Shown here piece by piece: positions 398 to 27,567 of a stretch of DNA of 29,500 bases. Within the stretch, counting starts at the first letter, position 1. Each line of letters begins with the position of its first letter. This stretch comes from a virus. The notes under the pieces are model-generated. The model was not told the origin of the DNA, did not search any database, and saw only the letters and a list, made by a program, of their open reading frames with translations. The stretch is from positions 1 through 29,500 of the IMG/VR virus record IMGVR_UViG_3300027279_000008; one strand, written 5' to 3'. Both the position numbers and the translations under genes were made by a program.

Positions 398-575
398 ATA
401 TGAAGTGGATGTTCGAGGTAAAAAAAGGAATAGAGAAGGAAAAAAAGAAAATAGCTCGACTAAAAGACTGTCCTAATAAACTTATAAGCTTATTAGGAGT
501 TAAAAAGACTCCACAAATGCGGGCTATTTTCCATCCTCCTCTATTCCTCAACCTCGAACGCCCGCTTCTTTTTTC
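398..575 (+). ncRNA. Putative structured phage RNA, ~175 nt
   Basis: The RNA is inferred from base pairing read by hand. P1 joins 402-419 to 551-568: 18 positions with one A·C mismatch and two G·U pairs. P2 joins 426-435 to 539-548 (10 pairs) and continues after an A·C mismatch with 437-440/534-537. P3 joins 447-458 to 520-531 (12 pairs). The two internal loops between P1/P2 and P2/P3 are the same: six A (420-425 and 441-446) opposite CA (549-550 and 532-533). The apical domain holds a hairpin, 472-479 with 490-497, extended by 467-469/498-500. A U-run (569-574) follows P1 directly and acts as terminator. No known family was recognised. Phage packaging RNA, a 6S-like decoy or an anti-defence RNA are possibilities, not conclusions. 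A reading frame on the same bases has no ribosome binding site. Confidence 0.7.
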
Positions 576-678: not shown

Positions 679-3600
679 ATGATTAAAGCTTCACAAATTC
701 AATTTAATGTATACTCAAATAAAAGTGTATTAAAGCCTATAAGGCAAATGTCCTTACAGGAATTTATTTATCTACATAAAAAATTACAAGATCCATTCAT
801 TGATGAGGATACTCCACAAATTCTTATTAATATATTAAGAGATTTAAAAGTAAGTAATCAAGTTATTGAACAAATATTCAAAATAGCAAGTTCTAGATCT
901 TTCTTATTAAAAGAACGAATTGAACTTAAAAAAGATCTTCCAGCTATTATTGCTTCTACATTAAATGATCGAACTGTTCCAATGGATCAATGTGTATATA
1001 GTGGCTACATTATTATTGACATTGATTATAGTGGCCCAACTAAAAAAGAAGATTTAGGAGAGGAAGAGGCTACTAATATAAAATCTTGTCTAAAATCTTT
1101 TCAGTCTCTTTTACAAGAATATTTATCAGAAGATGAGTATAAGGCTTTATTAATTTCTTTTATAAGTCCAACTGGCACAGGATTAAAATTATTATTTGCT
1201 GCTGACTTTGAAGAAAATAAATACAATCCTGAATTAGTGCAAGCTTTTTATAAAAATTTAGAAAAGGCCATTCTTTTATGGAAAACTAAAAATAATATTC
1301 CTTTTGATTTTTCAATTGATATAGCCACTAAAAATATCAATAGATTATGTTTTATTTTATTTACAGATGGTATTGAATTACATAATTATGAAATAATTAA
1401 TAAAGAGTATTATTTTGACATTAAGCCACTTAAAATGAATGTTTATAAAAACTTAATTGAAAAATCACAAATTTTAACTTATGAAGAACAAAAAGAATTA
1501 AAGGAAATTGAAGATAGAAGCCTAAGAAGATTACAAGAATTTTATATATTAGCCTCTAAAAGATTTCCTAATAGATTAAGTTTTGAGAGAGGCAATAGAA
1601 ATAATTCAATTTATTTTTATTCAATCTTAGTTTATTCTTATGATAAAATACATAACAAAAGGCCTACTCCAATTGAGGAAGTAGTAGAAATTTGTACACA
1701 AATCATGGAAAGAATTGGAAGTTTAGACCATACATTAAGAGATGATGAAATTAAACGAACAGTTGAAAGTGCTAAAAATTCTGTTGAACGTTATGGAATA
1801 CTTCATGAAGATATTCGAGATTTCTGTAAGGGATATAAGCCAATGAGGACTAATTCTGTAGAAATAAAATTAGATACAATTGAAACTAAAAATGGATATA
1901 TTTTCTTAAAATACAATAGTATTGAAGAATTCCAAGATTTCTTAAATAAATTAGAATCTAAACTTAATAAAACAAATCTAAAAAAATTCATAAATAAAAT
2001 TTTATCTTTATATTTTGAAGAAGTGCCGCATATTTGTGTAGAAGATAATTCAGTTTATACTTATTATAAAGTTGAAGGAGCTTTTTGTATTCCATATAAT
2101 GACCCAAGAACATTGAGATTTCAATCTACAAAAGCTGAAGCTATAAAAATGAATATCCTTAAGTATATTGAAAATAGAATATTTTTTGAAAATATGCCTG
2201 AGGACGAGGCCGAAACAGCTTGTGAAGTTTTTAAAGAATTTATTATTGAATATTTAACTCCTCAAAAGATTAAAGATTACTTATCTTCCAGTCGCTGGAT
2301 TAAAGAAATTCCATCAGATAAGTTATTACATTGTTTTACAAATGTCAATACACATACACATTTTTATCCATTAACAAAAGAATATTTTATTGTTGTATCA
2401 GAAAAAGATAAAACAATACAATTAAAACATTATACTGAATTTGAAGAGCGACTTATTTTATCTCAAAAAAGAACATTTCCTTTTGAATATATTACAAGAA
2501 ATTTATCTGAAGATTCAAAAAAAACATATATGAATAAAATAAAAGAAATTATACAAAATATAAATTCTAATAAAATCTCATTAGATGATTTAAAAAACAA
2601 TACCTATCAAGGGAAATTAGCTTCTTTATTATTCTTTGGAGAACTTAATCCTGACAATAAAGAATTTGAACAAATTTTAAAATTTCTTGGATTTAGTGCC
2701 TGCCCATCCACTACTCTTCCTAACAAATTGATTATATTTAAAGATATTGCCTCTACAATTCATGATGGAGCCCAAGGAGGAACTGGAAAATCTACATTTA
2801 TTAAGATTTTTTATGAGCCTTATATTCCATTTTCTCCATTAAATTCGATATCTCCAAAAGGCTTTCCATTAAGTAATTTAAAAACAGAAGATATGGCTTG
2901 GATTGGATTAGATACAACAGAATCTACAAATGCTATTTTTCCATTGATTAAAAATATAGAGAGTAATGAGCCTATATTTAAAGAAGAAAAATTTAAAAAT
3001 CAAGAAGTGATTAGTTTAGAAGAAAATCCAAAAAGAGTAATTCTTATTGGGAATCACGAATTACAATTACCAATGGATTCTACAATTTCGAGAAAAATTG
3101 TTGTAGTAGAAGTTTTTGGATTATTAAGAAAATATCATTCACAATTTTCTGAATTTAAAAATTTAAAAAATACATATACTTTAAAAGTTTTATCTGTTGA
3201 GGAGTGGCTTAAAGGATTTACTTTCTTCTTTTCTTCAATAAAATATTTTCTTAATAATATTGAGGAGTATAAAGGAAATGGAATTAATGAATTACTACAG
3301 CCTATGAGTAGAACATTAATTCAAACTAATATTAAGCATTCTAAAGGATTTATAAGTCTAAAAAGAGCTGAAGAAAAGAAAATTTTAGAACTTATTCCTC
3401 ACATAAAAGCTTTGATTTATGAAAAATATAATTTTAATAAAGAAAATGCTAAAGCTATTAGCCAAAATAAAATTGAAGCCGACATAGTTCCAACTAATTT
3501 TTCTCTTTCAAATATGATTTTAATCATTAAAGAAATGGCTAAAAAACGATCTGAAGGCCTAATGTTTTTAGGACAAGATGAAATCTATATAGAGGCTATA

Positions 3601-4572
3601 AAAGAATTTTTACAAGATCCTTTAAAGAAATTAAAAAATTATACCTCAAGTGATATTTTATCTAAATTAAAAGAAGAAGATCAACAAATTGAAAGAGAAC
3701 TAAGTGTATTACAATCAAATAAAGGAGAAGGATGGGCCACTTCACTTGAAGAAAAATTATTCTTAGAAGCTGGAGCCATAAAAGAAGGCAATTCAACATA
3801 CTACTTTGATTTTCCAATTTATTCAAGATTAAAAATATTAGTATCAGCATTTTCCGAATATTTTGAACATGACACTTATGTATTTGATGAATTATTAAGA
3901 TCCAACTCTGGACGATCTGAATCTCGTTTTATTACATTGATGTTATATCTATATGGAAAAAAACATAAATTAAATATTTTAAACAAAGAAGAAAAAGGAA
4001 AAATCATATATAAATTTATAAGTGAATTCATCAAAAGCTTCTGGCCAACTGTTTTAGAGTCTAAAGAAAGAAGACAATTCTTTATGGCTTATTTATTAAA
4101 AAATTTTGATTTAGATTATTTGGAACGATATTTAGATTTAATTAAAAATTTAATTCATCCTTCTGGCCAACAAACTAAGGAAGAGCTTCCTGAATCTATT
4201 AAAAAAGAATTAGAAGACTTAGAAAAATTTTTTACCAATGATATAAATAATGAGAAAAAAGAGAGCCTCTTAATTACAAAAGAGCCTATAGAACAAAAAA
4301 ATGAATTTAGTGCGTCTTCAATTAATGATAAAATAGAAATCAAAGAAGAAAGAACTTTTCTACTAAAAGAGACTCCAGATGAAGAAGCCAAAAAAAAAGG
4401 AGTCTTAACTGATAAAGAAATAGAACAAATTCTTCAAGAAATTGAGGAAAAGAAGAAAAAGAGAAAAATGAGAATTGTAAAAAGAGTACGAGACCCAGAA
4501 ACAGGAAAAGTAATAGAAACAATAGTTTTGGATGAATTAGATTGGAAATATAATAAAGATTCAAATTCATAA
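679..4572 (+). CDS. Primase-polymerase/SF3 helicase replication protein
   Basis: This 1297-residue protein probably primes and unwinds phage DNA. The N-terminal third resembles the VirE_N/BT4734-like archaeo-eukaryotic primase family: IIIDID at 111-116, SPTGTG at 163-168, and a DIATKNINRLCF stretch at 214-225. A P-loop GGTGKST lies at 700-706. About 95 residues further on, a motif resembling SF3 motif C (ILIGNHE) is followed by a DSTISRK arginine-finger-like segment, as in D5/SF3 helicases. The charged C-terminal tail (about 1200-1297) is rich in Lys and Glu. AGGAGGT six bases before the ATG fixes the start. No separate DNA polymerase, ligase or clamp gene is visible, so this is the core replication factor. 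At nearly 1300 residues it is long for a phage PrimPol-helicase. Domain assignments are by motif only. Confidence 0.82.
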   Translation: MIKASQIQFNVYSNKSVLKPIRQMSLQEFIYLHKKLQDPFIDEDTPQILINILRDLKVSNQVIEQIFKIASSRSFLLKERIELKKDLPAIIASTLNDRTVPMDQCVYSGYIIIDIDYSGPTKKEDLGEEEATNIKSCLKSFQSLLQEYLSEDEYKALLISFISPTGTGLKLLFAADFEENKYNPELVQAFYKNLEKAILLWKTKNNIPFDFSIDIATKNINRLCFILFTDGIELHNYEIINKEYYFDIKPLKMNVYKNLIEKSQILTYEEQKELKEIEDRSLRRLQEFYILASKRFPNRLSFERGNRNNSIYFYSILVYSYDKIHNKRPTPIEEVVEICTQIMERIGSLDHTLRDDEIKRTVESAKNSVERYGILHEDIRDFCKGYKPMRTNSVEIKLDTIETKNGYIFLKYNSIEEFQDFLNKLESKLNKTNLKKFINKILSLYFEEVPHICVEDNSVYTYYKVEGAFCIPYNDPRTLRFQSTKAEAIKMNILKYIENRIFFENMPEDEAETACEVFKEFIIEYLTPQKIKDYLSSSRWIKEIPSDKLLHCFTNVNTHTHFYPLTKEYFIVVSEKDKTIQLKHYTEFEERLILSQKRTFPFEYITRNLSEDSKKTYMNKIKEIIQNINSNKISLDDLKNNTYQGKLASLLFFGELNPDNKEFEQILKFLGFSACPSTTLPNKLIIFKDIASTIHDGAQGGTGKSTFIKIFYEPYIPFSPLNSISPKGFPLSNLKTEDMAWIGLDTTESTNAIFPLIKNIESNEPIFKEEKFKNQEVISLEENPKRVILIGNHELQLPMDSTISRKIVVVEVFGLLRKYHSQFSEFKNLKNTYTLKVLSVEEWLKGFTFFFSSIKYFLNNIEEYKGNGINELLQPMSRTLIQTNIKHSKGFISLKRAEEKKILELIPHIKALIYEKYNFNKENAKAISQNKIEADIVPTNFSLSNMILIIKEMAKKRSEGLMFLGQDEIYIEAIKEFLQDPLKKLKNYTSSDILSKLKEEDQQIERELSVLQSNKGEGWATSLEEKLFLEAGAIKEGNSTYYFDFPIYSRLKILVSAFSEYFEHDTYVFDELLRSNSGRSESRFITLMLYLYGKKHKLNILNKEEKGKIIYKFISEFIKSFWPTVLESKERRQFFMAYLLKNFDLDYLERYLDLIKNLIHPSGQQTKEELPESIKKELEDLEKFFTNDINNEKKESLLITKEPIEQKNEFSASSINDKIEIKEERTFLLKETPDEEAKKKGVLTDKEIEQILQEIEEKKKKRKMRIVKRVRDPETGKVIETIVLDELDWKYNKDSNS

Positions 4573-10392: not shown

Positions 10393-10442
10393 ATCCAATA
10401 TAGAAAGTTCTAAAGTGCCAAAGAAATAGTGTATTTAATCCT

Positions 10443-10509
10443 TAAAAAATTAGTTGGAAATTTGTGTGCATACAATGCACAAATTTTTCCATATATTTTT
10501 AGGCTATTT
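10443..10509. repeat. 67-bp direct repeat, copy R1, with long palindrome
   Basis: The palindrome at 10455-10491 has arms TGGAAATTTGTG...CAAATTTTTCCA. It is followed by TATATTTTTAGG, so on the + strand it resembles a rho-independent terminator for the terL unit. TTTTTAGGCTATT at 10496-10508 can also pair with AATAGCCTAAAAA at 10545-10557. The sequence is identical to copy R2. Confidence 0.85.
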
Positions 10510-10551
10510 ATTAGTCCATTCTACTTGATTAAACAATATAAAGGAATAGCC

Positions 10552-10618
10552 TAAAAAATTAGTTGGAAATTTGTGTGCATACAATGCACAAATTTTTCCA
10601 TATATTTTTAGGCTATTT
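10552..10618. repeat. 67-bp direct repeat, copy R2, with long palindrome
   Basis: Identical to R1 and 109 bp downstream; its palindrome lies at 10564-10600. Here the symmetry extends outward: AATAGCCTAAAAA (10545-10557) and TTTTTAGGCTATT (10605-10617) are perfect 13-bp outer arms, giving a ~73-bp interrupted dyad that could form a cruciform or a long RNA hairpin. Confidence 0.85.
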
Positions 10619-10705
10619 CTTTGGCCCTTTAATACTTTTTTGTCCTAAATACATAAAAAATTCCTAATATATTTTGATTTTTTTGAACATCGGATAAAAA
10701 AAGAG

Positions 10706-13285: not shown

Positions 13286-14332
13286 ATGAACAGAATAAAT
13301 GAAATTTTTGAAGCTGGGTATAAGTTATATAATAAAGATAAGGCCTCAATCATTTTGGAGAATTTATTGTCTGAAAGTGAGCTAAACAGAAAAAAAGCTT
13401 TAATGAATGTAAAAAGTGCTTTTGTATTTCCATATTACCTAAAAAAATATAAGAAAGCTGGACTTGAATTATCTGCTTTCGTATCTGATAAAGATATTTA
13501 TGAATTTAAATTAGCCGTTAGTGAGGCTTTAGTTGAGGCTGAGGCTATTGATGATAGATTAGGAGTTCTATTTAGTGAAAGAGAAGTTCCTTTTGAAACA
13601 AGCACAGTTTCTACTCCAGTTATTGATGGAAAAGGAATTACTATAACAGATATCACAAAAGGAAATAGAATAAAATTCTCTAATATAACTGGCACTGAAG
13701 CTAAAATCAATATGATTGAATTAGCAACAGGAATTGAGGCTAAGATTGATTTATTAAGAAGTGGAAATTATGCCGCTTTCTTAGATATTCTACAATTACA
13801 TAGAGTAAAATTATTTAATAGCAAATATGAAAAATTAGGAAAATTAATTAAGCAAGTAGCTGAACAAAGAGCCTCTTCTGGAGATCAAGTATTATATGAT
13901 ACAACTGGCGCCACACCAACTGAAAAAGATATTAACACACTCAATGACGCTGTGATAAAATTAAAAAATGATAACAGAGATCTAGTTGGAAATATAACTG
14001 AGGCTGTATTGTTAATTCCATCTAATGCTCAATTATTACAAAGAGTAAGAGTAGCCTTAAATACAATTACTCCAATTCCTGGAATAACTTCTTCTGTATT
14101 TATTGGAACATATCCAATACAAGTAATTGATACTAATCAAATTGAATGGGATAACAATAATACGGCTTATTTAGTAGTTCCAGGATTATTTAATAAGTTG
14201 TATGTAGCAATTAATGATGATACAGCTGAAAGTTTAAATGTACAACATTTTACAGTAAGCTGGGCTACAAGAATTAAATTTGGCGCTGGTATACTAAATA
14301 AAAATCAAGTATTGAAAGTGAATTTCGCATAA
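13286..14332 (+). CDS. Major capsid protein
   Basis: The 348-residue product has the size and position of an HK97-fold shell protein: after portal, protease/scaffold and decoration genes, behind a strong AAGGAGG site. The C-terminal half contains typical shell-protein elements: VLLIPSNAQLLQRV, FIGTYPIQVIDTN, and a terminal FTVSWATRIKFGAGILN segment, as seen in DUF2184-like capsid proteins. The first ~70 residues may be an N-arm or a part removed during maturation, but no cleavage site can be placed. The family name is less certain than the role. Confidence 0.8.
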   Translation: MNRINEIFEAGYKLYNKDKASIILENLLSESELNRKKALMNVKSAFVFPYYLKKYKKAGLELSAFVSDKDIYEFKLAVSEALVEAEAIDDRLGVLFSEREVPFETSTVSTPVIDGKGITITDITKGNRIKFSNITGTEAKINMIELATGIEAKIDLLRSGNYAAFLDILQLHRVKLFNSKYEKLGKLIKQVAEQRASSGDQVLYDTTGATPTEKDINTLNDAVIKLKNDNRDLVGNITEAVLLIPSNAQLLQRVRVALNTITPIPGITSSVFIGTYPIQVIDTNQIEWDNNNTAYLVVPGLFNKLYVAINDDTAESLNVQHFTVSWATRIKFGAGILNKNQVLKVNFA

Positions 14333-14333
14333 T

Positions 14334-14855
14334 ATGAAAGTTGAAGAATTTAAGAGGCTTTTACAAAATTTAAATGCCGATATTTCTCAAATTTATAAAG
14401 GCAGTAGTAGTATTCAAAGAATTTCTGAATACGAATATACTACTGCCGATACTCTCTCTACCTCTGATTATTTACTCATTGATTCTATTGAATGGCCTCT
14501 TAAAATAACAGAAATTAATGGAAACATTTTAAAAGTAGCTCTAAATATTGAAACGACTTTGTTTCCAATTAATGATATTAAAGAATATTACTATGTAAAT
14601 TCTGATTATTATATATATGAATGGATCTTGTATAAAAAAGCCAAAGCAATTGAGAAGAATTATATAATTTCTTTAGAAGAGGCTTTTGAATTGATCCAAG
14701 ATGAGAGATATAAAGTAGCTTTGATTCATGGAATCAATGTTAAGTCTCCATTTATTGAAATTGATGGAGTGACTATCTCTAAAAGAAAGCATATTAATTA
14801 TTCTTTGCATGAAGAATATTTAAAGGATAAAGTATGGCACAAGTGGCTCTTTTAA
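14334..14855 (+). CDS. Probable head-tail connector (adaptor), 173 aa
   Basis: This gene starts one base after the capsid stop and lacks a clear ribosome binding site, so it is probably translated by coupling with the capsid gene. Its place right after the capsid gene is where the adaptor that binds under the portal is normally encoded. The sequence is mixed alpha/beta with an N-terminal helix and a charged C-terminus; no family recognised. It overlaps the next gene by 22 bases. Confidence 0.55.
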   Translation: MKVEEFKRLLQNLNADISQIYKGSSSIQRISEYEYTTADTLSTSDYLLIDSIEWPLKITEINGNILKVALNIETTLFPINDIKEYYYVNSDYYIYEWILYKKAKAIEKNYIISLEEAFELIQDERYKVALIHGINVKSPFIEIDGVTISKRKHINYSLHEEYLKDKVWHKWLF

Positions 14856-15133
14856 AGAAGTTAGTTGCAATTAATGAAATTACTAAAACAGCAACTGAAA
14901 AAACTCATTTGATTTTTATCTTAGATTATAAAGAAAGAAATGATCTCAAAACTCATTCTCTTTATAAATTTGAAGAACATGAATATTATAGAGAATTTCT
15001 CATTAATGTAGTAAGTGATAAAATAGAGCCACAATTAAAAGATTTTATAGTTTTTAATAATCATAAGTTTAAGATACTTTCTACAGAACGAACATTTGGA
15101 AAGCTTTTTAAGGTGATATGTGGCTATGACTAA
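14834..15133 (+). CDS. Probable head-closure (stopper) protein, 99 aa
   Basis: The small beta-rich protein ends with FIVFNNHKFKILSTERTFGKLFKVICGYD, a pattern resembling stopper proteins of the SPP1 gp16 type that close the portal channel. Position supports this: second gene after the capsid, before a completion protein. AAGGA seven bases upstream serves the ATG. The assignment depends mostly on gene order. Confidence 0.5.
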   Translation: MAQVALLKKLVAINEITKTATEKTHLIFILDYKERNDLKTHSLYKFEEHEYYREFLINVVSDKIEPQLKDFIVFNNHKFKILSTERTFGKLFKVICGYD

Positions 15134-15497
15134 ATTAAATAAAAATCAATTAAATGAAGTGGCAATAAAATTAAGATATTATTCTTTATTTGAAGCTCCT
15201 ACTCCTCCAATACTTACAGGAAAATTAAGGGCTTCTGATTTCCATGTAGTAGATGAGGCCACTCAATCTATTTATGTAGGACATCTAGTTCCTTATGCTA
15301 AAAGATGGCATGATGGAAGAGCCGTAGAATCCAAAGAAGAAAAAAGAAGCCCTACAGACTGGGTAAAAGGGCCCGTATCTAAACAAGCTGGAAATGTAGG
15401 AGATCATTGGATTGAGTCTAAAATACCTTTGATTTTAAAGGATATAGCCGAAAAGATAACTATAAATATTTTAAAAGAGGCCACTAAAAATGCATAA
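15126..15497 (+). CDS. HK97 gp10-like tail completion protein
   Basis: The 123-residue protein contains the segment VGHLVPYAKRWHDG (51-64), then SPTDWVKGP and VGDHWIESKI, typical of HK97 gp10-like/minor tail completion proteins that join heads to tails. The ATG at 15126 is preferred over a GTG at 15120 because AAGGTGAT (15110-15117) is eight bases away. It overlaps both neighbours by eight bases, as is normal in this module. Confidence 0.68.
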   Translation: MTKLNKNQLNEVAIKLRYYSLFEAPTPPILTGKLRASDFHVVDEATQSIYVGHLVPYAKRWHDGRAVESKEEKRSPTDWVKGPVSKQAGNVGDHWIESKIPLILKDIAEKITINILKEATKNA

Positions 15498-15837
15498 ATT
15501 ACAAAAATTTTTATTATATATTCAAAGTAAAAAGCCTCATTTAAAGATTGTATTCTATAATTTATTTGACAATGATGGCTATCAAAATTATATTTTATTT
15601 AAGCCTACTTCATTTAATATGTGTTACGGAAAAAATGAAACATATATTGTATTTGTTTATTTTGATTATACTGATGATGTTTTAATGCTGCAACATTATA
15701 AGGATTTACTACAAGTTATAAATCCAGATAGGCAGCTATTGGAATATGATTCTGAAGAATTCTTAATTGAAGAATTATCTGGACTAAATTTTGATAAAGG
15801 AAAAATTTATTTTAATTTAAAATTAAAATTTAAATAA
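15490..15837 (+). CDS. Probable tail terminator protein, 115 aa
   Basis: Located between the gp10-like gene and the tail tube gene, where siphophages encode the protein that caps the finished tail tube. The sequence is an alpha/beta mix with strongly hydrophobic strands (NETYIVFVYFDYTDDVL, KIYFNLKLKFK) and a helix around 72-85, compatible with the terminator fold of lambda gpU. Direct sequence similarity was not recognised. Confidence 0.55.
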   Translation: MHKLQKFLLYIQSKKPHLKIVFYNLFDNDGYQNYILFKPTSFNMCYGKNETYIVFVYFDYTDDVLMLQHYKDLLQVINPDRQLLEYDSEEFLIEELSGLNFDKGKIYFNLKLKFK

Positions 15838-15848
15838 AGGAGGAATAT

Positions 15849-16661
15849 ATGATATTTTACAATCCAATATTAGGAAACTCAATTATAGGAGATGGAGATA
15901 AATTATCCTTAGGAGCCTGTCAATTATACTATGGAGATTTAAATCCTTTACAATTAACAGGAACAGTGGCTGTAGATGCAAGTGATTTAACTCATATAGT
16001 TGGTACAGGAACTAGTTTTACAAGTGAATTGAGAGAAGGAGATGTAATTTCTTTTTCCACTCTAAGTGGCTCTACATATTACAGAGTAGTAACAATTGTT
16101 GATAATACAAATTTGTTTTTAGATAAAAATGCTCCTTCATCTTTAAGTGGAAGTAATTATTATAAAATACGAGCTTTAGATTTAGGAAAAACAAGCGATG
16201 TTTCTGTAAAAATTAAATTTGGAAAGACTGATTTAAAATCAATTCAGACTGGAGACAACCCAGCCGATAGAGTTGTAACTTCTTATGAATGTACCGTTGA
16301 AACAGAAATATTAGAGCCTTCTGTAGAAAGATTAATTAAAGTATTGTCAGGATTTGAAGGAGTATGGAATCCAAGTACTGTAAATTATAAAAATCTATTT
16401 GTATATTTACCTTTAGGAGCACGTGATTCTGATACCGCAAAGCCTCTTCACTTATTTGCTATCAAAGAGGGAGAAGTAAAATATGATGCTCCATATCATT
16501 GGACGTTTGTTAAAGCTTGTCCTGAAGTTGATGCAGAAGTAAAATTTAATGCTTCAGATCAAAGAGCCTTTAAAGTGATGTTCTATTGTTATCCAGTAGA
16601 GATGACTGTTAATGGAAAAACAGTTAAGGTACTTAATTATGTTGGAGATCTTACTCCATAA
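15849..16661 (+). CDS. Major tail tube protein with inserted domain
   Basis: The 270-residue protein follows a strong AAAGGAGG site and occupies the tail tube position. Residues 37-107 form a distinct module (VGTGTSF, LREGDVISF, YRVVTIVDNTNLFL) of a type that recurs in phage structural proteins: a GTGT-f-x-GD-x-I pattern followed by strands. It looks like an insertion in the tube fold. The remaining parts (1-36 and 108-270) are beta-rich, ending MTVNGKTVKVLNYVGDL. The 3' end overlaps the following small membrane-protein gene. Confidence 0.76.
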   Translation: MIFYNPILGNSIIGDGDKLSLGACQLYYGDLNPLQLTGTVAVDASDLTHIVGTGTSFTSELREGDVISFSTLSGSTYYRVVTIVDNTNLFLDKNAPSSLSGSNYYKIRALDLGKTSDVSVKIKFGKTDLKSIQTGDNPADRVVTSYECTVETEILEPSVERLIKVLSGFEGVWNPSTVNYKNLFVYLPLGARDSDTAKPLHLFAIKEGEVKYDAPYHWTFVKACPEVDAEVKFNASDQRAFKVMFYCYPVEMTVNGKTVKVLNYVGDLTP

Positions 16662-16842
16662 AGTTAAATTTAAATTGATTTATTTAGGAGCAGTGGCATT
16701 ATTATGTGCCGCTGCCATTTATATTTATTTAGCTATTAATAAAAGAGAACGGCTCATTAAAAAATTAAATAACGGAACTAACAATGAAAAGATTAATTAT
16801 AATAGTGATATTGATTTTATTCGTGAGCAGTTGCAGAAGTAA
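16639..16842 (+). CDS. Small single-span membrane protein, lysis candidate
   Basis: A longer start at 16612 is possible, but AAGG at 16627-16630 favours the ATG at 16639, giving 67 residues. One transmembrane segment (about 12-33, rich in Leu and Ala) is followed by a basic NKRERLIKK stretch and a short polar tail. It overlaps the tail tube gene by 23 bases and the downstream lipoprotein gene by 59 bases. A short holin, antiholin or a reduced inner-membrane spanin would fit. The tail is too short for a typical Rz. Confidence 0.5.
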   Translation: MLEILLHKVKFKLIYLGAVALLCAAAIYIYLAINKRERLIKKLNNGTNNEKINYNSDIDFIREQLQK

Positions 16843-17167
16843 TACTGAGCTTATTAGAGTAAAAGATAAGAATTTACGGAGATTATGTACTGAGTTATAT
16901 CAAACAAAGAAAGAAATAGCCGACTGTATTGCAGATAGATATACATTATTTATGGACATTTTAAATGGCACTAATAAAGAAGTCTCTTTGATTAAAAAAG
17001 AAAGATTGGACTTATATACAATTATTGAAACTTATGAAATTTGTTATTCTAATAAAAGATTTTGTGAATACATTGAAGTTCCAAAAAATGAAAAACATTT
17101 TATTATAAAAGCTGCTGAAATTGGCCTATATATTTTTATAGGATATATCATAAAAGGAGGAATTTAA
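16784..17167 (+). CDS. Unimolecular spanin-like lipoprotein
   Basis: The N-terminus is a lipoprotein signal: MKR, a hydrophobic run, then the lipobox VSSC with Cys17 as the lipidated residue. The C-terminus (about 104-127) is a second hydrophobic segment around GLYIFIGYII. A lipid anchor in the outer membrane plus a C-terminal inner-membrane segment is the architecture of u-spanins such as T1 gp11, which fuse the two membranes at lysis; the length (127) is also similar. The middle carries four further Cys. It begins inside the preceding gene with only a weak ribosome site, suggesting coupling. Location inside the tail cluster is unusual. Alternative: a surface lipoprotein blocking superinfection. 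Confidence 0.62.
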   Translation: MKRLIIIVILILFVSSCRSNTELIRVKDKNLRRLCTELYQTKKEIADCIADRYTLFMDILNGTNKEVSLIKKERLDLYTIIETYEICYSNKRFCEYIEVPKNEKHFIIKAAEIGLYIFIGYIIKGGI

Positions 17168-17171
17168 ACTT

Positions 17172-17624
17172 ATGAAAAAATTACAATTAAACATTGCTAA
17201 AGAAAATGAGAAAAGATTAGCCACAATGTTAGAAGTAATCGATACAGATGGGCCTAAAGAAATTTCTATTTATGTAAATACTCCAACTCCTGAAAGATTA
17301 AAATCGCTTTCAGATATTGCTGATAAATCAAAGGAGTTGATGGAGCAATTTGAAGATTTACAAGAAAAAATTGAAAAAGCGGCAACAGAAGAAGAGAGGG
17401 CTAATTTAGGAAAAATATTAACAGATCTTTCTGTAAAAATGAATGAATTGAATATCAAGTCTTTACAAATTCAAGTAAAAAACTTTGATACTTTAGTTCC
17501 ATACTTAGAATACATATTCTCTGTAAATTCCTATGCAGAAGAGCTTATAAAAGTAATTAGTGATAAGTTCTTAGAATTATTAAACAAAGAAGAGGTAAAA
17601 AAAAAGGAGAAGAGGATAAAGTGA
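17172..17624 (+). CDS. Tail assembly chaperone, short form (gpG-like)
   Basis: In siphophages the two frames just before the tape measure encode chaperones that coat the tape-measure protein during tail assembly. This 150-residue helical protein is highly charged, with coiled-coil potential around 48-100, and fits the short form. AAAGGAGG precedes its ATG. Near the 3' end it contains an A AAA AAG slippery sequence in the correct frame, followed by the next gene in the -1 frame. Identity rests on position and frameshift arrangement. Confidence 0.72.
   Translation: MKKLQLNIAKENEKRLATMLEVIDTDGPKEISIYVNTPTPERLKSLSDIADKSKELMEQFEDLQEKIEKAATEEERANLGKILTDLSVKMNELNIKSLQIQVKNFDTLVPYLEYIFSVNSYAEELIKVISDKFLELLNKEEVKKKEKRIK
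17600..17606 (+). promoter_or_regulatory. -1 programmed frameshift site in tail chaperone genes
   Basis: A run of nine A (17597-17605) ends in A AAA AAG positioned on the zero-frame codons AAA AAG. This is the most slippery bacterial heptamer known, as in E. coli dnaX. Slipping back one base continues in the frame of the next gene with no stop, giving a fusion of about 262 residues (145 from the first frame, 117 from the second). This mirrors lambda G/GT. Confidence 0.72.
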
Positions 17625-17959
17625 TGAATTCTCTTCTTTTTGATTACTATGAATGGAAATTAAGAAAATATTTTCCTTATTTGAAGTTTCCTTTGAATAA
17701 GTATGCTTTTCATTATTATTCATTATTATTAGAAATCATTGAGTTGAATGAAGAGAAAAAAGAAATTATAAATAATCCAAACATTGATAGAAAGGATAAA
17801 GAGCGCTTAATTAATAAAATCAATAGCCAAATAGATGGGCTAATTTATACAAGAGTAGAAAAGGCGCCTCGATACCAAAATAGTTCATCTATATTTGATT
17901 ATATAGCTGAGCAATATAAGAAATATGTAAATCAAAATGGAGAAATAAGAAATGGCTGA
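17624..17959 (+). CDS. Tail assembly chaperone, C-terminal (T-like) part
   Basis: This 111-residue frame is in the -1 frame relative to the preceding gene and is open back through the slippery site, so it probably exists mainly as the C-terminal part of a frameshift product. Independent initiation at the ATG overlapping the upstream TGA, with AGAGG eight bases before it, remains possible. The helical, Tyr/Lys-rich sequence has no recognised motif. It overlaps the tape-measure start by eight bases, the usual place for this domain. Confidence 0.68.
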   Translation: MNSLLFDYYEWKLRKYFPYLKFPLNKYAFHYYSLLLEIIELNEEKKEIINNPNIDRKDKERLINKINSQIDGLIYTRVEKAPRYQNSSSIFDYIAEQYKKYVNQNGEIRNG

Positions 17960-20900
17960 GATGCATGAGGCTATAGTACGAATTAAGATTGATATTTCTC
18001 AAGCAGAAAAAGCCTCACAGCAATTAAAGTCTAATATTCAATCTATAGAAAAAGAATCAAAAAATCTTTCTAAGTCATTTGACATTAAAGATCAAGTAGA
18101 GAATGGAACGGCCGCTTTAAAAGAAGCTACAATTGCTACAATTGAATTTGGAAAGACTACTTTTAATGTAACTCGTTCTCTTTTAAGAGCGTATGCAGAC
18201 CTTCAGAATACTTTAAATAATTTAACTGTTGTTTATTCACTATTAGGAGGAAATAAAGTAATTTTAGGACTTACATATTCTTATGTACGATCACAATTCT
18301 TTGATGTTTTAGTGGCTCCAATTGAAGAAATATCAAAAGTAGTAGCCAACGCTTCTTTAAATATAGCTAAAGAATTTAAAAATTTAGGAGTATCCGTTTA
18401 TACGTCTTTTGTACAAGAAGTAATTCCAAATTTTAGACGAATTCCAAGTATTTTAAGAGCAAATCAACAAATTATAAATACTGAGCTCTCTAATTTAATT
18501 AAATCACAAAAAGTACAATTTATTTCTGAAGAGATTATAACTCAACAATTACGAAATATCACTAATTTATTTAGAACTAACTTTGTTCCAAAGTGGATTA
18601 ATGAAATTAAAAATTTAAATCGATTAACAAGAGCCGAATTTTCATTATTCTCTGACGCCTTATCAGAAGATAGTTTAGCTAAATCTTTATTATCACAACA
18701 AAGACAAGTCTCTTTGGCCTTTTCACAAATAAAGGCCACTTTAATCAGAGAAATAGGAGATGAGCGCGACTTATTATTAAGATTTTTGATTAATTTACAA
18801 TTATTCAGTGCAAGATTAAGAACACTATTTGTAGCTAATTTTGATGCAATTGAAGGATATTTAAGAGTATTTCCAGGCCTCACGACTTTTAATACAATTT
18901 TTAGCAATATTAATAACATTTTTCTTCAAAATATACTTAATTTTATTTCTACAGGCTCCATACAATTTAGAGAGGCCTTAATTAGAGTATTTACATTCAC
19001 TCCAACATTGATTACAAGTATTATTTCGGATTTAAGTGGCTCTATCTTTTTATTTTTTAATTTATTAAGAACTACACTTATAAATCAATATGCTCAAAGT
19101 GGCATGTTTATTGGATTATCTTATAGAATTACTACTGATTTACAAAGTATTTTTGAAATAATTTCTTTAAGTTTTTTAAGATTAACATTATTAATTGAAT
19201 CTTCAGTTCTTAGATTAGCGTCTTTAACAAAAAATCAAATTGGAAATATTTTTACAGCCGCTGTTCCAACTTTACGAGATACCTTTTCTAAGGTACTTAC
19301 TTTTATTAATATAGTATTATTACAATTAAGAATTCAATTAATACAAGGAAGTATTGTTTTAGAGAATACAATTAGTTCAGTTTTATTAAGACTTATAAAT
19401 CAAATAAGTAGTAGATTAAGTACATTATTACCATCAAGAAATTTATCATTTATACAAGTATTTTTTAGATCTCTAAGCGGCGCCTTTTTAGCAGGATTAC
19501 AAACTTACTTGATTAGTATAAATCAATTAGTTATAACTTTTTTTACAACTTTTAGAAGTATCATATTTGGAGAATTTAAGGCGGCTTTTATAAATGCTTT
19601 AAATTTCTTAAATACTTACTTTATTAGTGATTTTAAAAATATTCTTTCAGTAGTTAATACAATAATTTTAAGTTTTCAAAATATTCTATTACGATTAGGG
19701 CAAAGCCTCACGGCCTTAAATATTCCAATCAATTTAGTTGGAAATAGCCTCTCATTAGTTAGAAGTCTTTTAATTAATTTTGAAAATTTAATAGGAAATA
19801 TCTCTAATAAAATTAATGTATCTTTAATAGCTTTAAATGCAAACTTAACAAGAGAAAACTTAGTGAATGTTTGGAATCAAAGTGGAGCGGCGCTTAGAAG
19901 ATTTGGAGATGATTTACTTTATACAATTAATAAGTACACTGGCTTAGTTGATTTTGTGAAAAATACTTCTAATGTTTTTATTAATACAGGACAAAATGTG
20001 TCTAATGTTTTATCTACTACTTTTAGAAGTACTTTATCAATTTTAGGAGAAGTTGGAAAAAATATTTTTACTTTAACTGGAGCCTTTTTAGAATTTAGTA
20101 AAATTACTAGCGCTTTATTTAGTGGCAGTTTATTTACTGAATTTAAACAAAAATTCGCTCAAGCCATTTCATCTACTATTGCAGGAGGACTTGGACTTTT
20201 AGGATTATATAAAATTAATGAATTTAAACAAGAATTGATTTTAGTAGGAGATGAAATAAATAGAATTGCAATTGCAATGAGTAATTTTGTTGGAGGATTA
20301 GAAAATGCTCAAATACTGATATCTAAAGTTTTACAATATTCAGCCGAAAATCCTTTACTTGATTCAGATCAATTAATTAAAGCGACTAAATTATTATTAA
20401 ACTATGGAATAGCCGCTGAAGAATTAGTAGAAAGGACTAAAGAAGTAGCACAAGTTGCTTCAGCGGTAGGAGTATCAGTAGAAGATGTATCTAGGATTTA
20501 TGGACAAGTTGTAAGTAAAGGAAGATTACAATTAGAAGAATTATATCAATTTGCTGAAAGAGGAATTCCTATAATGGCTACTTTTTCTAAAATGTTAGGA
20601 GCCTCTACATCTGAATTCCAACAAATGATTAAAGAAGGAAAAATTACTGCAGAGGTATTTAAGGATTTATTCAATCAATTAGCAAATGGCGCTGAGTATT
20701 ATGGAGGAGTATTAGAAAGACAAAGTCAAACTGTAACTGGACTAATGCAAGGAGTTAGAGATAACTTACAGATAATCAAAATGAGTATAGGCGCCATTTT
20801 AGGAGATTTAGCTCGTCCATTTGCTGAAATTACTATACAAATTACAGATTTTATTAGAGGACTTGTTTTAATTTTAAAAGATTTATATTTCTCTTTAGGA

Positions 20901-23582
20901 GAGGGATCTAGAAGATTCTTAGGAATGATTGGAACATTAATGAGTTGGGGCTTTACCTTAATTTCTGTATATATGTCAATTTCATGGTTGGTAAGAGGGC
21001 TAAAAATCTTGATTTCATTATTTCCATTTATATTTTATCATATTAAAAATATTATAAGCGCCTTTTTATCTTTGATAGGAGTTAAGCAATTATACATTGT
21101 ACAACAAGTTCAGGAAATATGGAATAATCAAGCGTTAGGAACTTCTTATCAAAGAATATTGATTATATTAAGAACTTTAATTATACAATATGGAATATTA
21201 CTTTCAACAATGGCTTTAATTGCCGCCGCTCTTTCTGCTATAGTTTATATTATTTATAAATATATTGAAGCCCAAAAGCAACAAGTTGATGCTATAAAAG
21301 AATTTATCAATAGTTCTAAAGACTTAGAAAATGTAAAATTAAGATATATTGGATTAACTGAAGCGCAAATTGATTATATTAATCAATTAAAAGAGAGTAA
21401 AAAAGCTGAACAATTAGCCTTAGCCTCTAAAAATAATTTACAAAATTCTTTAAAATTATTAACTAAAGGATTTGAAGAGGTTGTGGCTCAAAGTAAAGAG
21501 GCTCAATCTCAATTGATTAAAGTTAATGCAATAAAAATTAATAGAGATTTAGTTTCATTTACGTTCAATCCAACAGTTATTAAATCAACGTTAGATAAAG
21601 TTCTATTCTGGGTAGTAGTAGTTGGACTTACTATAAAAAATGTAATAATGTTCTCATTCAATACGATAGGAACAATTGCACGAGGTACATTTGATTCTAT
21701 AGTTAATATAGCGCAAGGAGTAGTACAAGTCATTTTGAAAGTGGCTGTCGCAATGAAGGAGGCTCTAACTGGAAATATTGCAGCCGCTAAACAAGCTACA
21801 AAAGAGTTATTAGATGCTATTACAAATACAGGAACTAATGCTTCTAATATTTTATCTGCTATTGTAAAATCTATTGTTCTTGATTTTAAATCAATTTATA
21901 CAAATGCGTTAATTGACGCTAATAATATGTTTAGTGAATTTAAAGTAAATTCTCAACAAATGGATATTAAGCCTCAAATTTCTCCACAAGATTTAGATAA
22001 ACTTAAAGAAAAAGTTAAAGAAAAAGTTGAAGAAATTTCAGAAGAACACATTATAGAAATTTCTTTACAACTTAATGAACAAACTGTACAAAATATAAAA
22101 GAATTATTGGATAAAACATTTGTTTCTTTAAAAGCGTTCAATTTAATATCATTTAGTACTAGTGAAGAAGGCCTTTCACAATTAACTGATAAAGCATTTG
22201 ATTTTTTAGGAATAGCTGATAGTATAAAAGATAAATTAGTTCTCATAAATGAACAATTAAGTGGAGTATCTGAAGGAAGTGAGGCTTTTCAAGCTTTATC
22301 TAATGAAGCTTCTAATTTACGTAGGCAATTAAATTCTTTAAAGGAGACATTTGGAAAATCTTTTGGATATGTTATACAATCATTGGTAAAAGGATTAGAA
22401 AATTTATTTCAATCTATACAAACAAAAATGAGAGTATTAAGGGAAGTAATGCAACGACAACAAGAATGGATTAATTATCTATATAATAATTTATTGGAAG
22501 CTACTACAAATTATTATAGTAATTTAATAGAAAAAAATAGAGACGCTCACAAAAAAATGTTAGAAGATATTCGAAATTTTTATGATGAGCTTAAATTTCT
22601 AGGAGACGAAGAGTATCAAAGGAGAAAGGAATTAATCGAAGAGGAATATAATTTAAAGAAACAACAATTAGAACAGGAATTACAAGATAGATTAGCACAA
22701 AATGAGGCTTTAAGTTTAACTTCTTATGAACGAATGGTAAATGAAGCGATTATTCTTCAAGATTATCACAATCAATTAGAACAGTTAGAAAGAGAAAAAG
22801 AAGAAAAACTTAAACAACTTAGAGATGAAATAAGACAACAAAATCTTAAAAAAGAAACAGAATATTTAAATCAATTAGCACAACAACATGGAATTTTTGA
22901 TGCAGAAAAATGGAAATATTTAAGTAATGAAGAAAAGAGAAAATTAATAGAACAAAAACTCAAAGAAGATGAAGCAAAAAAAGAGCAACAATTACAACAA
23001 CAAAAATTAAATGAAGAAAAACGTATAAAGAAAGAAAAAGCTACAGCTGATTATATGTTTACATTAGCAGAATTTAATATGAATAAAATGCTGTCTTTAA
23101 TGAATTTAAGAGTACAATTAGCATTAGCAATGGCAAGTATAGCTGCAGGTATGGCAATGGCCGCTGCTCAGACTGGTATATTTGCTTTTATATTTATTCC
23201 TACTTTATTAGCCTTAGGAGCTATGGTATATAATAATATTATGAGGGCTATGGGCATGGTAGCAGCTGTGCCTCCTCCTCCACCTCCTAGAGAATTAGCG
23301 TTACAAGAAGGAGGATACATTGATAGTAATCAAAGAAGAGAGACTTATGATAATATTCCAGCAAGAGTACAAGCTGGAGAATTTGTAATTAATAGAGAAA
23401 AAACTAAAATGTTGTATAATGCTATCGATAATATTGCTTTAGGTAATGAAGGATCTAAAGAAAAATCTATAAATATTCAATTTGCTCCTAATAGTATTTA
23501 TATTCAAGGAGTAGTTGACGATAATTTAATTAATACTATAAGTGTAAAAATCACTGATAGAATAAGGACGGCGCTAATATGA
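17952..23582 (+). CDS. Tape measure protein
   Basis: The 1876-residue protein sets tail length and is probably ejected into the cell during infection. Residues ~50-740 are hydrophobic, low in charge and quasi-repetitive. Residues ~750-960 form the conserved tape-measure domain, with segments such as SAENPLLDSDQL and YQFAERGIPIMATF. A hydrophobic region (about 983-1100) is likely membrane-active. A Gln/Glu/Lys-rich coiled coil spans about 1500-1700, followed by an Ala/Met-rich hydrophobic segment, a run of six Pro, and the C-terminal GEFVIN motif near 1810. It uses nearly a fifth of the genome and predicts a tail of well over 200 nm at roughly 1.5 Å per residue. No peptidase or lysozyme domain was recognised. 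Confidence 0.9.
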   Translation: MAEMHEAIVRIKIDISQAEKASQQLKSNIQSIEKESKNLSKSFDIKDQVENGTAALKEATIATIEFGKTTFNVTRSLLRAYADLQNTLNNLTVVYSLLGGNKVILGLTYSYVRSQFFDVLVAPIEEISKVVANASLNIAKEFKNLGVSVYTSFVQEVIPNFRRIPSILRANQQIINTELSNLIKSQKVQFISEEIITQQLRNITNLFRTNFVPKWINEIKNLNRLTRAEFSLFSDALSEDSLAKSLLSQQRQVSLAFSQIKATLIREIGDERDLLLRFLINLQLFSARLRTLFVANFDAIEGYLRVFPGLTTFNTIFSNINNIFLQNILNFISTGSIQFREALIRVFTFTPTLITSIISDLSGSIFLFFNLLRTTLINQYAQSGMFIGLSYRITTDLQSIFEIISLSFLRLTLLIESSVLRLASLTKNQIGNIFTAAVPTLRDTFSKVLTFINIVLLQLRIQLIQGSIVLENTISSVLLRLINQISSRLSTLLPSRNLSFIQVFFRSLSGAFLAGLQTYLISINQLVITFFTTFRSIIFGEFKAAFINALNFLNTYFISDFKNILSVVNTIILSFQNILLRLGQSLTALNIPINLVGNSLSLVRSLLINFENLIGNISNKINVSLIALNANLTRENLVNVWNQSGAALRRFGDDLLYTINKYTGLVDFVKNTSNVFINTGQNVSNVLSTTFRSTLSILGEVGKNIFTLTGAFLEFSKITSALFSGSLFTEFKQKFAQAISSTIAGGLGLLGLYKINEFKQELILVGDEINRIAIAMSNFVGGLENAQILISKVLQYSAENPLLDSDQLIKATKLLLNYGIAAEELVERTKEVAQVASAVGVSVEDVSRIYGQVVSKGRLQLEELYQFAERGIPIMATFSKMLGASTSEFQQMIKEGKITAEVFKDLFNQLANGAEYYGGVLERQSQTVTGLMQGVRDNLQIIKMSIGAILGDLARPFAEITIQITDFIRGLVLILKDLYFSLGEGSRRFLGMIGTLMSWGFTLISVYMSISWLVRGLKILISLFPFIFYHIKNIISAFLSLIGVKQLYIVQQVQEIWNNQALGTSYQRILIILRTLIIQYGILLSTMALIAAALSAIVYIIYKYIEAQKQQVDAIKEFINSSKDLENVKLRYIGLTEAQIDYINQLKESKKAEQLALASKNNLQNSLKLLTKGFEEVVAQSKEAQSQLIKVNAIKINRDLVSFTFNPTVIKSTLDKVLFWVVVVGLTIKNVIMFSFNTIGTIARGTFDSIVNIAQGVVQVILKVAVAMKEALTGNIAAAKQATKELLDAITNTGTNASNILSAIVKSIVLDFKSIYTNALIDANNMFSEFKVNSQQMDIKPQISPQDLDKLKEKVKEKVEEISEEHIIEISLQLNEQTVQNIKELLDKTFVSLKAFNLISFSTSEEGLSQLTDKAFDFLGIADSIKDKLVLINEQLSGVSEGSEAFQALSNEASNLRRQLNSLKETFGKSFGYVIQSLVKGLENLFQSIQTKMRVLREVMQRQQEWINYLYNNLLEATTNYYSNLIEKNRDAHKKMLEDIRNFYDELKFLGDEEYQRRKELIEEEYNLKKQQLEQELQDRLAQNEALSLTSYERMVNEAIILQDYHNQLEQLEREKEEKLKQLRDEIRQQNLKKETEYLNQLAQQHGIFDAEKWKYLSNEEKRKLIEQKLKEDEAKKEQQLQQQKLNEEKRIKKEKATADYMFTLAEFNMNKMLSLMNLRVQLALAMASIAAGMAMAAAQTGIFAFIFIPTLLALGAMVYNNIMRAMGMVAAVPPPPPPRELALQEGGYIDSNQRRETYDNIPARVQAGEFVINREKTKMLYNAIDNIALGNEGSKEKSINIQFAPNSIYIQGVVDDNLINTISVKITDRIRTALI

Positions 23583-24364
23583 AGATAAAATTTTTTAATA
23601 ATAGAAATGAAACATTAGATTTAAGTTCAATAACAACGGCGTATTTAGTAAATTATGATGATGTAGATAAAGATATAAGCTTTGTTCCTGTTTATGGGAC
23701 GGATAGAATCAATGTGTTAGGAAAAGATACAATTAAGCAAAGACAAATAGAATTAAATATCTCTTTAGTGGCTATGAATGATTATGATTTTAGAGTAGTA
23801 GTTAATGATATTTACAGCTTCTTTACAGCGGATAGATGTTATATCTTAGATGAACATAATAATATTTATGCTGAAGTAAAATTACAATCAATTAAAAAGT
23901 TTTTTAGCCTAAGTGGAAATGAATATAGGTATACGGAGTTAAAATTAATTTTAGTCGCCTTAGATGGGATGTTCTTTGATTATAATCCAATAATAATTAC
24001 ACGATCTTATGTTAATACACGATTTTTTACTGCTCCTACAATTAATATTCCTCAATTTGATACATATCCAATAATTAAGATTAAATCTTTAGTGAATAGA
24101 TTTAATTATATCAAAATTATTGGAGAGGCTCAAATATTAGAAATTGATACGAGTGGCTATAATTTAGGAGATATTTTAGTAATAGATGGAATGGAAAGTA
24201 AAATTTATTTAGAGAAGAATAATAATCAAGTTGATATTTCTACACAAGTGGCACGAGGCGGCTTTATTAGATTGAAAAAAGGCACTAATAATTTGAATTT
24301 TTATTTTAATATTGCAAGTAATTTTAATTTAACAATAGAATATAGGAATAGATATATTATATGA
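23579..24364 (+). CDS. Distal tail protein (Dit-like)
   Basis: Directly after the tape measure, with a four-base overlap, lies a 261-residue beta-rich protein. The first half (about 1-130) reads like the ring-forming N-domain of Dit/siphovirus tail-component proteins, including KQRQIELNISL and a FFTADRCYILDE segment. The second half (135-261) resembles a galectin-like beta domain. Dit forms the hexameric hub linking tube and tip. The call depends on gene order and fold-like pattern. Confidence 0.68.
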   Translation: MKIKFFNNRNETLDLSSITTAYLVNYDDVDKDISFVPVYGTDRINVLGKDTIKQRQIELNISLVAMNDYDFRVVVNDIYSFFTADRCYILDEHNNIYAEVKLQSIKKFFSLSGNEYRYTELKLILVALDGMFFDYNPIIITRSYVNTRFFTAPTINIPQFDTYPIIKIKSLVNRFNYIKIIGEAQILEIDTSGYNLGDILVIDGMESKIYLEKNNNQVDISTQVARGGFIRLKKGTNNLNFYFNIASNFNLTIEYRNRYII

Positions 24365-25950
24365 TAAGAAAGTATAAAATACTAAGAGAAAATGTATTAA
24401 GACAAGTTGTAAAATTCCCTCAAACTCGATTAATCACTTTAGAAGAGAGTGATATATCATTATATGGAATTACTGGAGAAAGAGCTATAACATTCATTGG
24501 AGGCGGCTACAATTTTACAATCAAAGAGGCTACATTCACACTTGATACTTATGGAAGTAATTCAGCTGAAGTGACTTTAAGTAAAACTGTAGATATTGAG
24601 ATTCCAGCAGGAACTTATTTAGGTATAGCCGTCAAAAATGAGCCTCTATACTTAGGATATGTGTATGAGAGCTATGATATTAATAATCAAAAAGAAATAA
24701 AATTAAAGTGTAAAGGACTAATTGAGAAATTTAAAGATGTAGGAATTTCTAAAAATTATGTAAGTGGCACGACTGTAAAGGATATAATCAAAGATATTTG
24801 TACACAAGTGGCTATTGAATATCCTATTCTAAAAGTTAAAGAGGCTAATTTTAATGTAAGTAGTAATTATGCTATTCCTATTTCATTACAAATTGATAAA
24901 AAGAATGCCTTTAAAATGATTGAAGCACTTGCAAATGCTATTAATTGTTATGTGTATATTGATGGATTAGGAAATATTCATTTAAAAGAAAAAAATACGG
25001 GTATTGAGGATATAATTTTCTCTGAAAAGCAATTAGTGGAGCTTAAATTAGATATGGAGAACGTTTATAATCATATTTATGTGAAAAGACAGGCTCCAAA
25101 AGGAACTGGACAGACTGGATGGACTATTCCAGCTGGATTTCCTTTGTCAGATCGAGCAAGTATTAATGCTTATGGAATAAAACAAAAAGACTTAATGGTG
25201 CCTGAATATTTTGATGATGCTACTTGTTCTGAAATAGGAAGAAATTTCTTAAATGAGTATAAGCGGCCAAAATACAAAGGAGAGGCTCAAAAAGTTCCAT
25301 TGGATAAAATAAGAAAAATTGGAAATTATAAAATCGTATCATTGTATAATGAATTATTTGAAGTAGCCACTGAATTTGATGATTTAAATCAATTGATTTA
25401 TGATAACAATGATACTACAGCGACTCAGACTATTACTACAACTGATTATATTAGTGGAAGTGGCTCATTACAAGTTGAATTAACAGCTCCATCACAAAAG
25501 ATGTATTATGTAGATTTAGGAGGAGAATATTTTATCAATGCTCTTTACGTTTATGCTAAAATAGAAGATTTACTTAATCAAGGAAGAAATTTTAATTTTA
25601 AAGTAATTTATGGATTAAATGCTCCTAATGAACATGAAATAGCCACCATAATTAATAGTTATAGATTTTCTTTGTATAAAATTGGAATTCCAACTACTTT
25701 AATAAGATTTATAGGAATTCAATTGAATGATAATAAATTAAGTATGAGAGTATTTTTTGATAAGTTATATTTTAAATATTTAGGATGGCAACATTTTAAT
25801 ATGTTTTGTAAAAAAATCAGGTATAGATTAAGTAATAGAGAAAATTATTGTGAATTAACTTTTGATAGAGAAGAAGCTAAAATTGAGAATTTTATAAAAG
25901 GAATGATTTCAGAAGGAGAAATTATAAAAATTTTATTAGAAAGGAGATAA
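24361..25950 (+). CDS. Tail tip hub protein (Tal/gp27-like)
   Basis: The 529-residue protein overlaps the Dit-like gene by four bases. Its N-terminal ~320 residues show features of tail hubs of the gp27 type: alternating beta strands, VSGTTVKDIIKDICTQV (about 138-154), and FKMIEALANAINCYVYIDGLGNIHLKE (about 182-208). The C-terminal part (about 345-480) looks like a separate beta-sandwich that could bind carbohydrate or fibres. No lysozyme or peptidase motif was recognised. Confidence 0.68.
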   Translation: MIRKYKILRENVLRQVVKFPQTRLITLEESDISLYGITGERAITFIGGGYNFTIKEATFTLDTYGSNSAEVTLSKTVDIEIPAGTYLGIAVKNEPLYLGYVYESYDINNQKEIKLKCKGLIEKFKDVGISKNYVSGTTVKDIIKDICTQVAIEYPILKVKEANFNVSSNYAIPISLQIDKKNAFKMIEALANAINCYVYIDGLGNIHLKEKNTGIEDIIFSEKQLVELKLDMENVYNHIYVKRQAPKGTGQTGWTIPAGFPLSDRASINAYGIKQKDLMVPEYFDDATCSEIGRNFLNEYKRPKYKGEAQKVPLDKIRKIGNYKIVSLYNELFEVATEFDDLNQLIYDNNDTTATQTITTTDYISGSGSLQVELTAPSQKMYYVDLGGEYFINALYVYAKIEDLLNQGRNFNFKVIYGLNAPNEHEIATIINSYRFSLYKIGIPTTLIRFIGIQLNDNKLSMRVFFDKLYFKYLGWQHFNMFCKKIRYRLSNRENYCELTFDREEAKIENFIKGMISEGEIIKILLERR

Positions 25951-25953
25951 TGT

Positions 25954-26808: not shown

Positions 26809-26820
26809 TTGGAGGCTTTT

Positions 26821-27567
26821 ATGAATTATAAAATAATATACATTTATGATAAAGATACAAAAGAATACAAAGGTCAAGAGGTAGCTCCTTTTATACGAGG
26901 TCAATACATAATGCCAATGTATTGTACTGAAATTGCTCCTGATTTTTCTTTATTACAACAAAATCAATGTTTTGTTTTTAATGAACAAGAGCAAAAATGG
27001 AGCATAGTTCCAGATTATAGAGGCACTACTTTATATCATAAAGAAACTAAACAGGAATTTGTGATAAATGAAATTAATAAACTTCCAGAAGAGTATACTG
27101 AATACACAACTAAAAATCCAAAAGATGTTTATGAAGATATAAACTTTCTCTATTATAATGAAGAAATAAAGGACTGGGATTTTGATTTCAATATTCTTTA
27201 TGAAAGAGTGAGACAAAATATAACTGTCATACGAGAAAAAAAGATAACAGCTCCATTTTTTTATAATGGATATGATTTTGATGGAAGGCCTATTGATATT
27301 ATAAATATAGAACAAGCTATGAAAGGAATGCAAATGGCCAATCTTACAACAATTGAATGGAGGGCTCATGGTAATCAAGATGTAGTCCTAACAATAGATG
27401 ATTTAAATAATATGTATGCTATATGGCTTGAAAGAAAACAAAAATGTTATAAAGCATCTTTTATTTTTAAAGATAGTTTAATGAATAAAACGAAACAAGA
27501 GCTTATTGATTTATTAGATTTAACTAAGGGTGAAGTAGAATTTGTAAATATTTACAATACATTATAA
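26821..27567 (+). CDS. Tail fibre-associated protein (DUF4376-like)
   Basis: The N-terminal part (about 1-80) reads like tail-fibre assembly or attachment proteins (YDKDTKEYKGQ, WSIVPDYRGTTLYHKET). The C-terminal part resembles DUF4376: a helix with repeated Arg/Glu, FFYNGYDFDGRPIDI, then TTIEWRAHGNQDVVLTIDDL. It follows the collar fibre gene, so it may help that fibre fold or attach. The ATG at 26821 is chosen over a TTG at 26809 because GGAGG (26811-26815) lies five bases before it and would be inside the longer version. Confidence 0.68.
   Translation: MNYKIIYIYDKDTKEYKGQEVAPFIRGQYIMPMYCTEIAPDFSLLQQNQCFVFNEQEQKWSIVPDYRGTTLYHKETKQEFVINEINKLPEEYTEYTTKNPKDVYEDINFLYYNEEIKDWDFDFNILYERVRQNITVIREKKITAPFFYNGYDFDGRPIDIINIEQAMKGMQMANLTTIEWRAHGNQDVVLTIDDLNNMYAIWLERKQKCYKASFIFKDSLMNKTKQELIDLLDLTKGEVEFVNIYNTL

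Follow-up and report, generated by a model that had tools for sequence, protein, structure and literature searches.

A predicted RNA rod between a promoter and a U-tract ahead of a phage primase-helicase gene: a candidate noncoding leader RNA

What is the strongly folding element that occupies the large gap ahead of the first gene of this phage, and on which strand and by what means could it act? The window, i.e. the whole stretch of DNA that was analysed (29,500 bases, GC 27%), is the record of one virus genome. Its bases 1-120 recur as an exact direct repeat at 29381-29500, and the genome is therefore circular or terminally redundant, and complete, with a unit length of 29,380 bp. Judged from its protein matches (large terminase, head decoration protein, tape-measure protein, Dit, tail collar and fibre-assembly proteins), it belongs to a siphovirus-like phage, whose large terminase matches an N-terminal ATPase and an RNaseH-like domain. 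Essentially all predicted genes lie on the + strand, from 679 to 29353, and most of them are preceded by a GGAG-type ribosome site. The element is located in a 700-nt gap ahead of the primase-helicase gene, 3' of two 37-bp palindromes:

1-37 (also 29381-29417, in the terminal repeat), + strand: 37-bp palindrome, candidate protein-binding site upstream of the promoter
112-148, + strand: second copy of the 37-bp palindrome, 111 bp on
398-575, + strand: predicted structured noncoding RNA, rod with a branched apex (MFE, shuffles)
679-4572, + strand: primase-helicase-like replication gene, first gene after the RNA locus, 1,297 aa

The product of this gene displays a BT4734-like N-terminal domain (PF08800, 1.1e-5) and the Walker A motif GGTGKST.

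An earlier note, made from the letters of this DNA, had proposed that 398-575 forms three helices of 17, 14 and 12 pairs, separated by two A6/CA internal loops and capped by hairpins, and had suggested thermodynamic folding as a check. Folding reproduced this architecture:

402-419, + strand: 5' arm of helix P1, 17 pairs with 551-568 and one AxC mismatch
420-425, + strand: first A6 internal loop, opposite CA at 549-550
426-440, + strand: 5' arm of helix P2, 14 pairs with 534-548, mismatch A436xC538
441-446, + strand: second A6 internal loop, opposite CA at 532-533
447-458, + strand: 5' arm of helix P3, 12 pairs with 520-531 (centroid and 60-80 C folds)
474-495, + strand: apical hairpin TAATAA(A)CT/AG(C)TTATTA (fold; also an inverted repeat)
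496-512, + strand: apical hairpin GGAGTT-AAAAA-GACTCC (fold)
520-531, + strand: 3' arm of P3 (centroid and 60-80 C folds)
534-548, + strand: 3' arm of P2 (fold)
551-568, + strand: 3' arm of P1 (fold)

P1 is composed of 402-408/562-568 and 410-419/551-560, which gives 18 positions when the AxC mismatch is counted with the 17 pairs, and P2 of 426-435/539-548 and 437-440/534-537. The 12 pairs of P3 found in the centroid are reduced to 11 in the MFE structure, where G458 goes to the small apical hairpin. The apex is a multiloop from which the two hairpins, 474-495 and 496-512, emerge.

The predicted stability of this fold is far outside what its composition would give. The MFE of 398-575 on the + strand is -67.6 kcal/mol compared with -31.6 +/- 4.0 for dinucleotide shuffles (z -9.07), and none of the 200 shuffles reached it. 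When all 180-nt windows of the genome were folded on both strands (mean -25.2, sd 6.9), the lowest + strand MFE was that of the RNA locus. Such a structured phage element is thus very unlikely to have arisen by chance, in agreement with the earlier note. In the same vein, among the genome's inverted repeats that match at 16 of 17 positions within about 200 nt, 402-418/552-568 is the richest in GC, and the stems reach 50% GC versus 27% genome-wide. In silico, the mean pair probabilities of the three helices at 80 C are still 0.91, 0.85 and 0.75, and the rod fold is unaltered when the RNA is lengthened to 720. According to these models, it is almost certain that the stretch adopts a long rod as RNA; the element is real, non-random and hitherto undescribed, and most likely represents a small noncoding phage RNA. 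The twin A6/CA loops are present as claimed, but A6 runs are frequent in this genome (94 of them on the + strand, or 3.2 per kb), and the pair is therefore less remarkable than it had been presented.

The two ends of the rod are marked by predicted transcription signals, placed as for an RNA that starts and ends at its closing helix, which is what had been claimed for them:

363-391, + strand: sigma-70-type promoter TGTACA-17-TATAAT, PWM score 7.66, predicted start at about 397-399
569-582, + strand: U-tract TTTTTTCTCTTTTT, T6CTCT5 right after the last paired base of P1 (568), candidate intrinsic terminator

The promoter elements (TGTACA at 363-368, a 17-nt spacer and TATAAT at 386-391) end 10 nt upstream of the rod; initiation about 7 nt past 391 would fall at 398, four bases ahead of it. 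With a PWM score of 7.66, this promoter ranks 19 on the + strand and is the sole intergenic site in the top 25. The chance of such a placement is about 0.006 for nine fitting placements, and at least six T in seven follow a random base at 1.0% of positions (0.010); both figures are rough, and the site had been picked after being seen. An exact 12-bp repeat, TGTACAAAATAA, is found at 363-374, before the RNA, and again at 637-648, before the primase start; it is possibly a shared promoter element or a product of chance.

Which strand would be transcribed is not settled by the fold itself. The minus strand has an MFE of -74.9 kcal/mol, lower than that of the plus strand. The irregular helix positions on the plus strand are three U-G (406/564, 410/560 and 456/522) and two A-C (409/561 and 436/538), which become two wobbles and three A-C on the minus strand (plus A-C turning into G-U and plus U-G into A-C). 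With three wobbles versus two, and the better fold on the minus strand, the RNA strand cannot be told from wobble use; only the putative promoter and the U-tract favour the plus strand as the RNA strand. An antisense RNA, with accidental signals on the plus strand, would benefit from this higher stability, yet it is very unlikely: the minus strand has no comparable promoter close upstream (the best nearby scores 5.9, and one of 7.3 lies inside the primase gene), nor is its helix followed immediately by a U-run.

Could the plus strand encode a small leaderless protein instead? The ORF at 400-648 (+, 82 aa) has a length exceeded in only 0.05% of shuffles, and its ATG stands 2 nt past the predicted transcription start. 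However, it has no RBS and no match in Pfam, PHROG and phage searches, and its codon score is -0.09 bits per codon, whereas coding windows of this genome average 0.41 with a minimum of 0.01. With a codon usage below every coding window of the genome, the ORF was rejected as a coding one, and we regard this reading as highly improbable, in line with the earlier note, which saw no ribosome site for a protein. Its codon score is near the top of off-frame windows, and its lack of stops may result from the GC-richer, purine/pyrimidine-biased helices.

The folding of both strands, with helix irregularities that show no strand bias, would also suit an element acting as DNA, i.e. an imperfect inverted repeat that would serve, along with the palindromes upstream, as the hairpin or cruciform of a replication origin next to the primase-helicase gene. 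In addition, the element lies in the single large gap before the replication gene and near the paired 37-bp palindromes. This possibility leaves the promoter and the U-tract at the exact ends unexplained, and a simple cruciform would hardly have a branched apex or an inner region of 132 nt. Moreover, a comparable palindrome pair at 10453-10600 occurs without a rod. We consider a DNA element unlikely, though a serious competitor of the RNA readings. The palindrome, TGGAAAAATTTGTGCA-N4-ATGCACAMAAATTTCCA, is present in four copies that form two tandem pairs, the second being inverted:

10453-10491 and 10562-10600: inverted pair of the 37-bp palindrome, 109 bp apart, between terL and the next gene

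The palindromes, which have no match in viral contigs, are candidate operator, origin or partition sites. A second strongly folding intergenic region was observed at 10404-10638 (365 nt, z -8.2), and its strong fold can be traced to the repeated palindromes and to inverted repeats on either side.

The rod was then compared with known structured RNAs. No meaningful match to it was obtained in Rfam at gathering and permissive thresholds. Bacterial 6S RNA, which binds RNA polymerase and serves as a template for product RNA, was one of the models listed in the earlier note and resembles it by its long rod, similar length and paired ends. Nevertheless, 6S RNA contains a large single-stranded central bubble between the closing stem and the terminal loop (PMC4064990), whereas the phage rod has no large two-sided central bubble and its internal loops are just A6/CA. 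The covariance model RF00013 did not match the phage RNA while it detected controls including those of E. coli and B. subtilis, so the phage RNA does not group with 6S RNA. A packaging RNA of phi29 type fared no better. Here, the likeness (RF00044, PMC5340915) lies in the length, in a hairpin-branched apex on a paired-end helix and in a position near the map end. The model RF00044 gave no match, a weak test as pRNAs have only 12% sequence in common (PMC5340915). Furthermore, phi29-like genomes are linear and protein-capped and encode a packaging ATPase in place of a nuclease terminase, and neither feature occurs in this phage, which combines a nuclease-type large terminase with a circular or terminally redundant map (120-bp terminal direct repeat). 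In pRNAs, two loops of a three-way junction interlock between copies; the phage RNA has a branched apex, and no complementary pair was noticed by eye in its apical loops (UAAAAGACU and AAAAA). An RNA titrating CsrA/RsmA was also rejected, as every GGA (407, 427, 438 and 496) lies in a helix and none in loops.

Among the roles listed in the earlier note, control of the downstream replication gene suits the layout best. Promoter, rod, U-tract and replication gene follow one another on one strand, and the arrangement therefore fits a terminating leader RNA with read-through. Taking position as our only guide to function, we infer transcription, termination and read-through at the locus and tentatively favour, with a probability of roughly 0.45, a noncoding leader RNA of ~170 nt that terminates at its own rod and, by read-through, supplies the replication operon with transcripts. 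Initiation by the host RNA polymerase would take place at about 398 from the promoter at 363-391, and the emerging 3' arm would zip onto the 5' arm. The last pairs of P1, closing at the U-tract 569-582, would act as an intrinsic terminator and let go a stable rod with both ends paired. A minority of transcripts would read through and provide the mRNA of the primase-helicase gene (679) and the following genes, the RNA thereby metering early replication-gene expression, and the freed rod may additionally work in trans via its A-rich loops or apex. Folding did not reveal a competing antiterminator structure, and regulated read-through is therefore speculative.

Phage-encoded RNAs with a comparable position exist. 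In phage P4, CI RNA is a small leader RNA of the alpha replication operon, which is headed by a primase-helicase gene; it is complementary to its own leader and promotes termination. The RNA described here likewise lies ahead of a primase-helicase gene but differs in that no complementary leader target is seen. Antisense immunity RNAs of the P4 CI or P1 c4 type were rejected on the ground that the exposed loops have no complementary target in the phage leader. Elsewhere in the phage, the longest exact antisense matches are of 11-12 nt, mostly in A/T-rich tracts, and single-loop duplexes with phage targets are at chance level; the best target match of the whole apex reaches a borderline p of 0.03, uncorrected for the four segments tested. 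The short form of IsrK, from the Salmonella Gifsy-1 prophage, stops at the terminator of the RNA itself, and transcripts that start at the same promoter but read through serve as mRNA of the downstream genes (PMC4825925). The same order of promoter, structured RNA, U-tract and same-strand gene is present in our phage. However, IsrK acts through base pairing with a known partner (PMC4825925), whereas a target for the phage RNA was not found, and no sequence relation between the two is known. In HK022, the structured putL RNA directly follows an early promoter of the phage and heads the early genes; put is ~70 nt long, consists of two stem-loops and suppresses termination (PMC9378689). In contrast, the RNA described here would measure ~170 nt, folds into a single rod whose apex is branched, and itself runs into a terminator-like U-tract.

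The leader reading competes mainly with that of a free-standing phage RNA acting in trans, unrelated to primase control and terminated nearly completely, whose A6/CA loops would bind a host or phage protein as a decoy, scaffold or anti-defence RNA. A stable RNA that acts in trans would require just such paired ends, terminator and thermal stability, and the TGTACAAAATAA repeat at 637 could mark a separate primase promoter. On the other hand, no other near-consensus promoter is found from 569 to 679, where the best site ahead of the primase start scores 5.6 versus 7.7 for the promoter at 363-391. Known protein-binding RNA families are unmatched and A6 runs are common in the genome, which makes this second reading possible but rather doubtful. 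It is quite unlikely that the rod represents a new class of phage architectural RNA, made early, bent and needed for infection, in which the two equivalent A6/CA loops would dock a dimeric phage or host protein.

Relatives of the locus were sought with 8-mers of the primase and terminase, terminase Walker B patterns and the primase Walker A motif, and also with gapped P1 arms, the palindrome and a tape-measure motif (viral contigs and genomes). No homologue of the RNA locus was found in the viral contigs, genomes, and phage and plasmid DNA searched, the latter two giving A-rich or weak matches only. The gapped P1-arm pattern had 32 matches, about the chance number, unrelated in sequence and fold. 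The sole close relative (contig L040) is 99% identical at the DNA level over 13906-28100 and ends short of the RNA locus, where covariation, along with conservation the usual proof of an RNA, would be sought. Most noncoding RNAs of uncultivated phages have yet to be mapped, as there are no families that they could be matched to, and this candidate is unusually clear-cut in the coincidence of its rod with a promoter and a terminator-like tract. If it is expressed, a phage lineage that has hardly any known relatives would gain an RNA switch or RNA product at its replication operon.

As to the host, the IVYWREL fraction of the phage proteins is 0.436 compared with 0.35-0.41 in other AT-rich viral contigs. 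Their charged-minus-polar bias is not high, and the IVYWREL value is therefore no more than a weak hint of a thermophilic host. Strong GGAG ribosome sites and a sigma-70-type promoter are atypical for Bacteroidota. The tape-measure protein (17952-23582) has a TMP_3 domain distantly common to Geofilum and Marinilabilia contigs (Bacteroidota), and its next relatives share about 27-36% identity with it across this domain.
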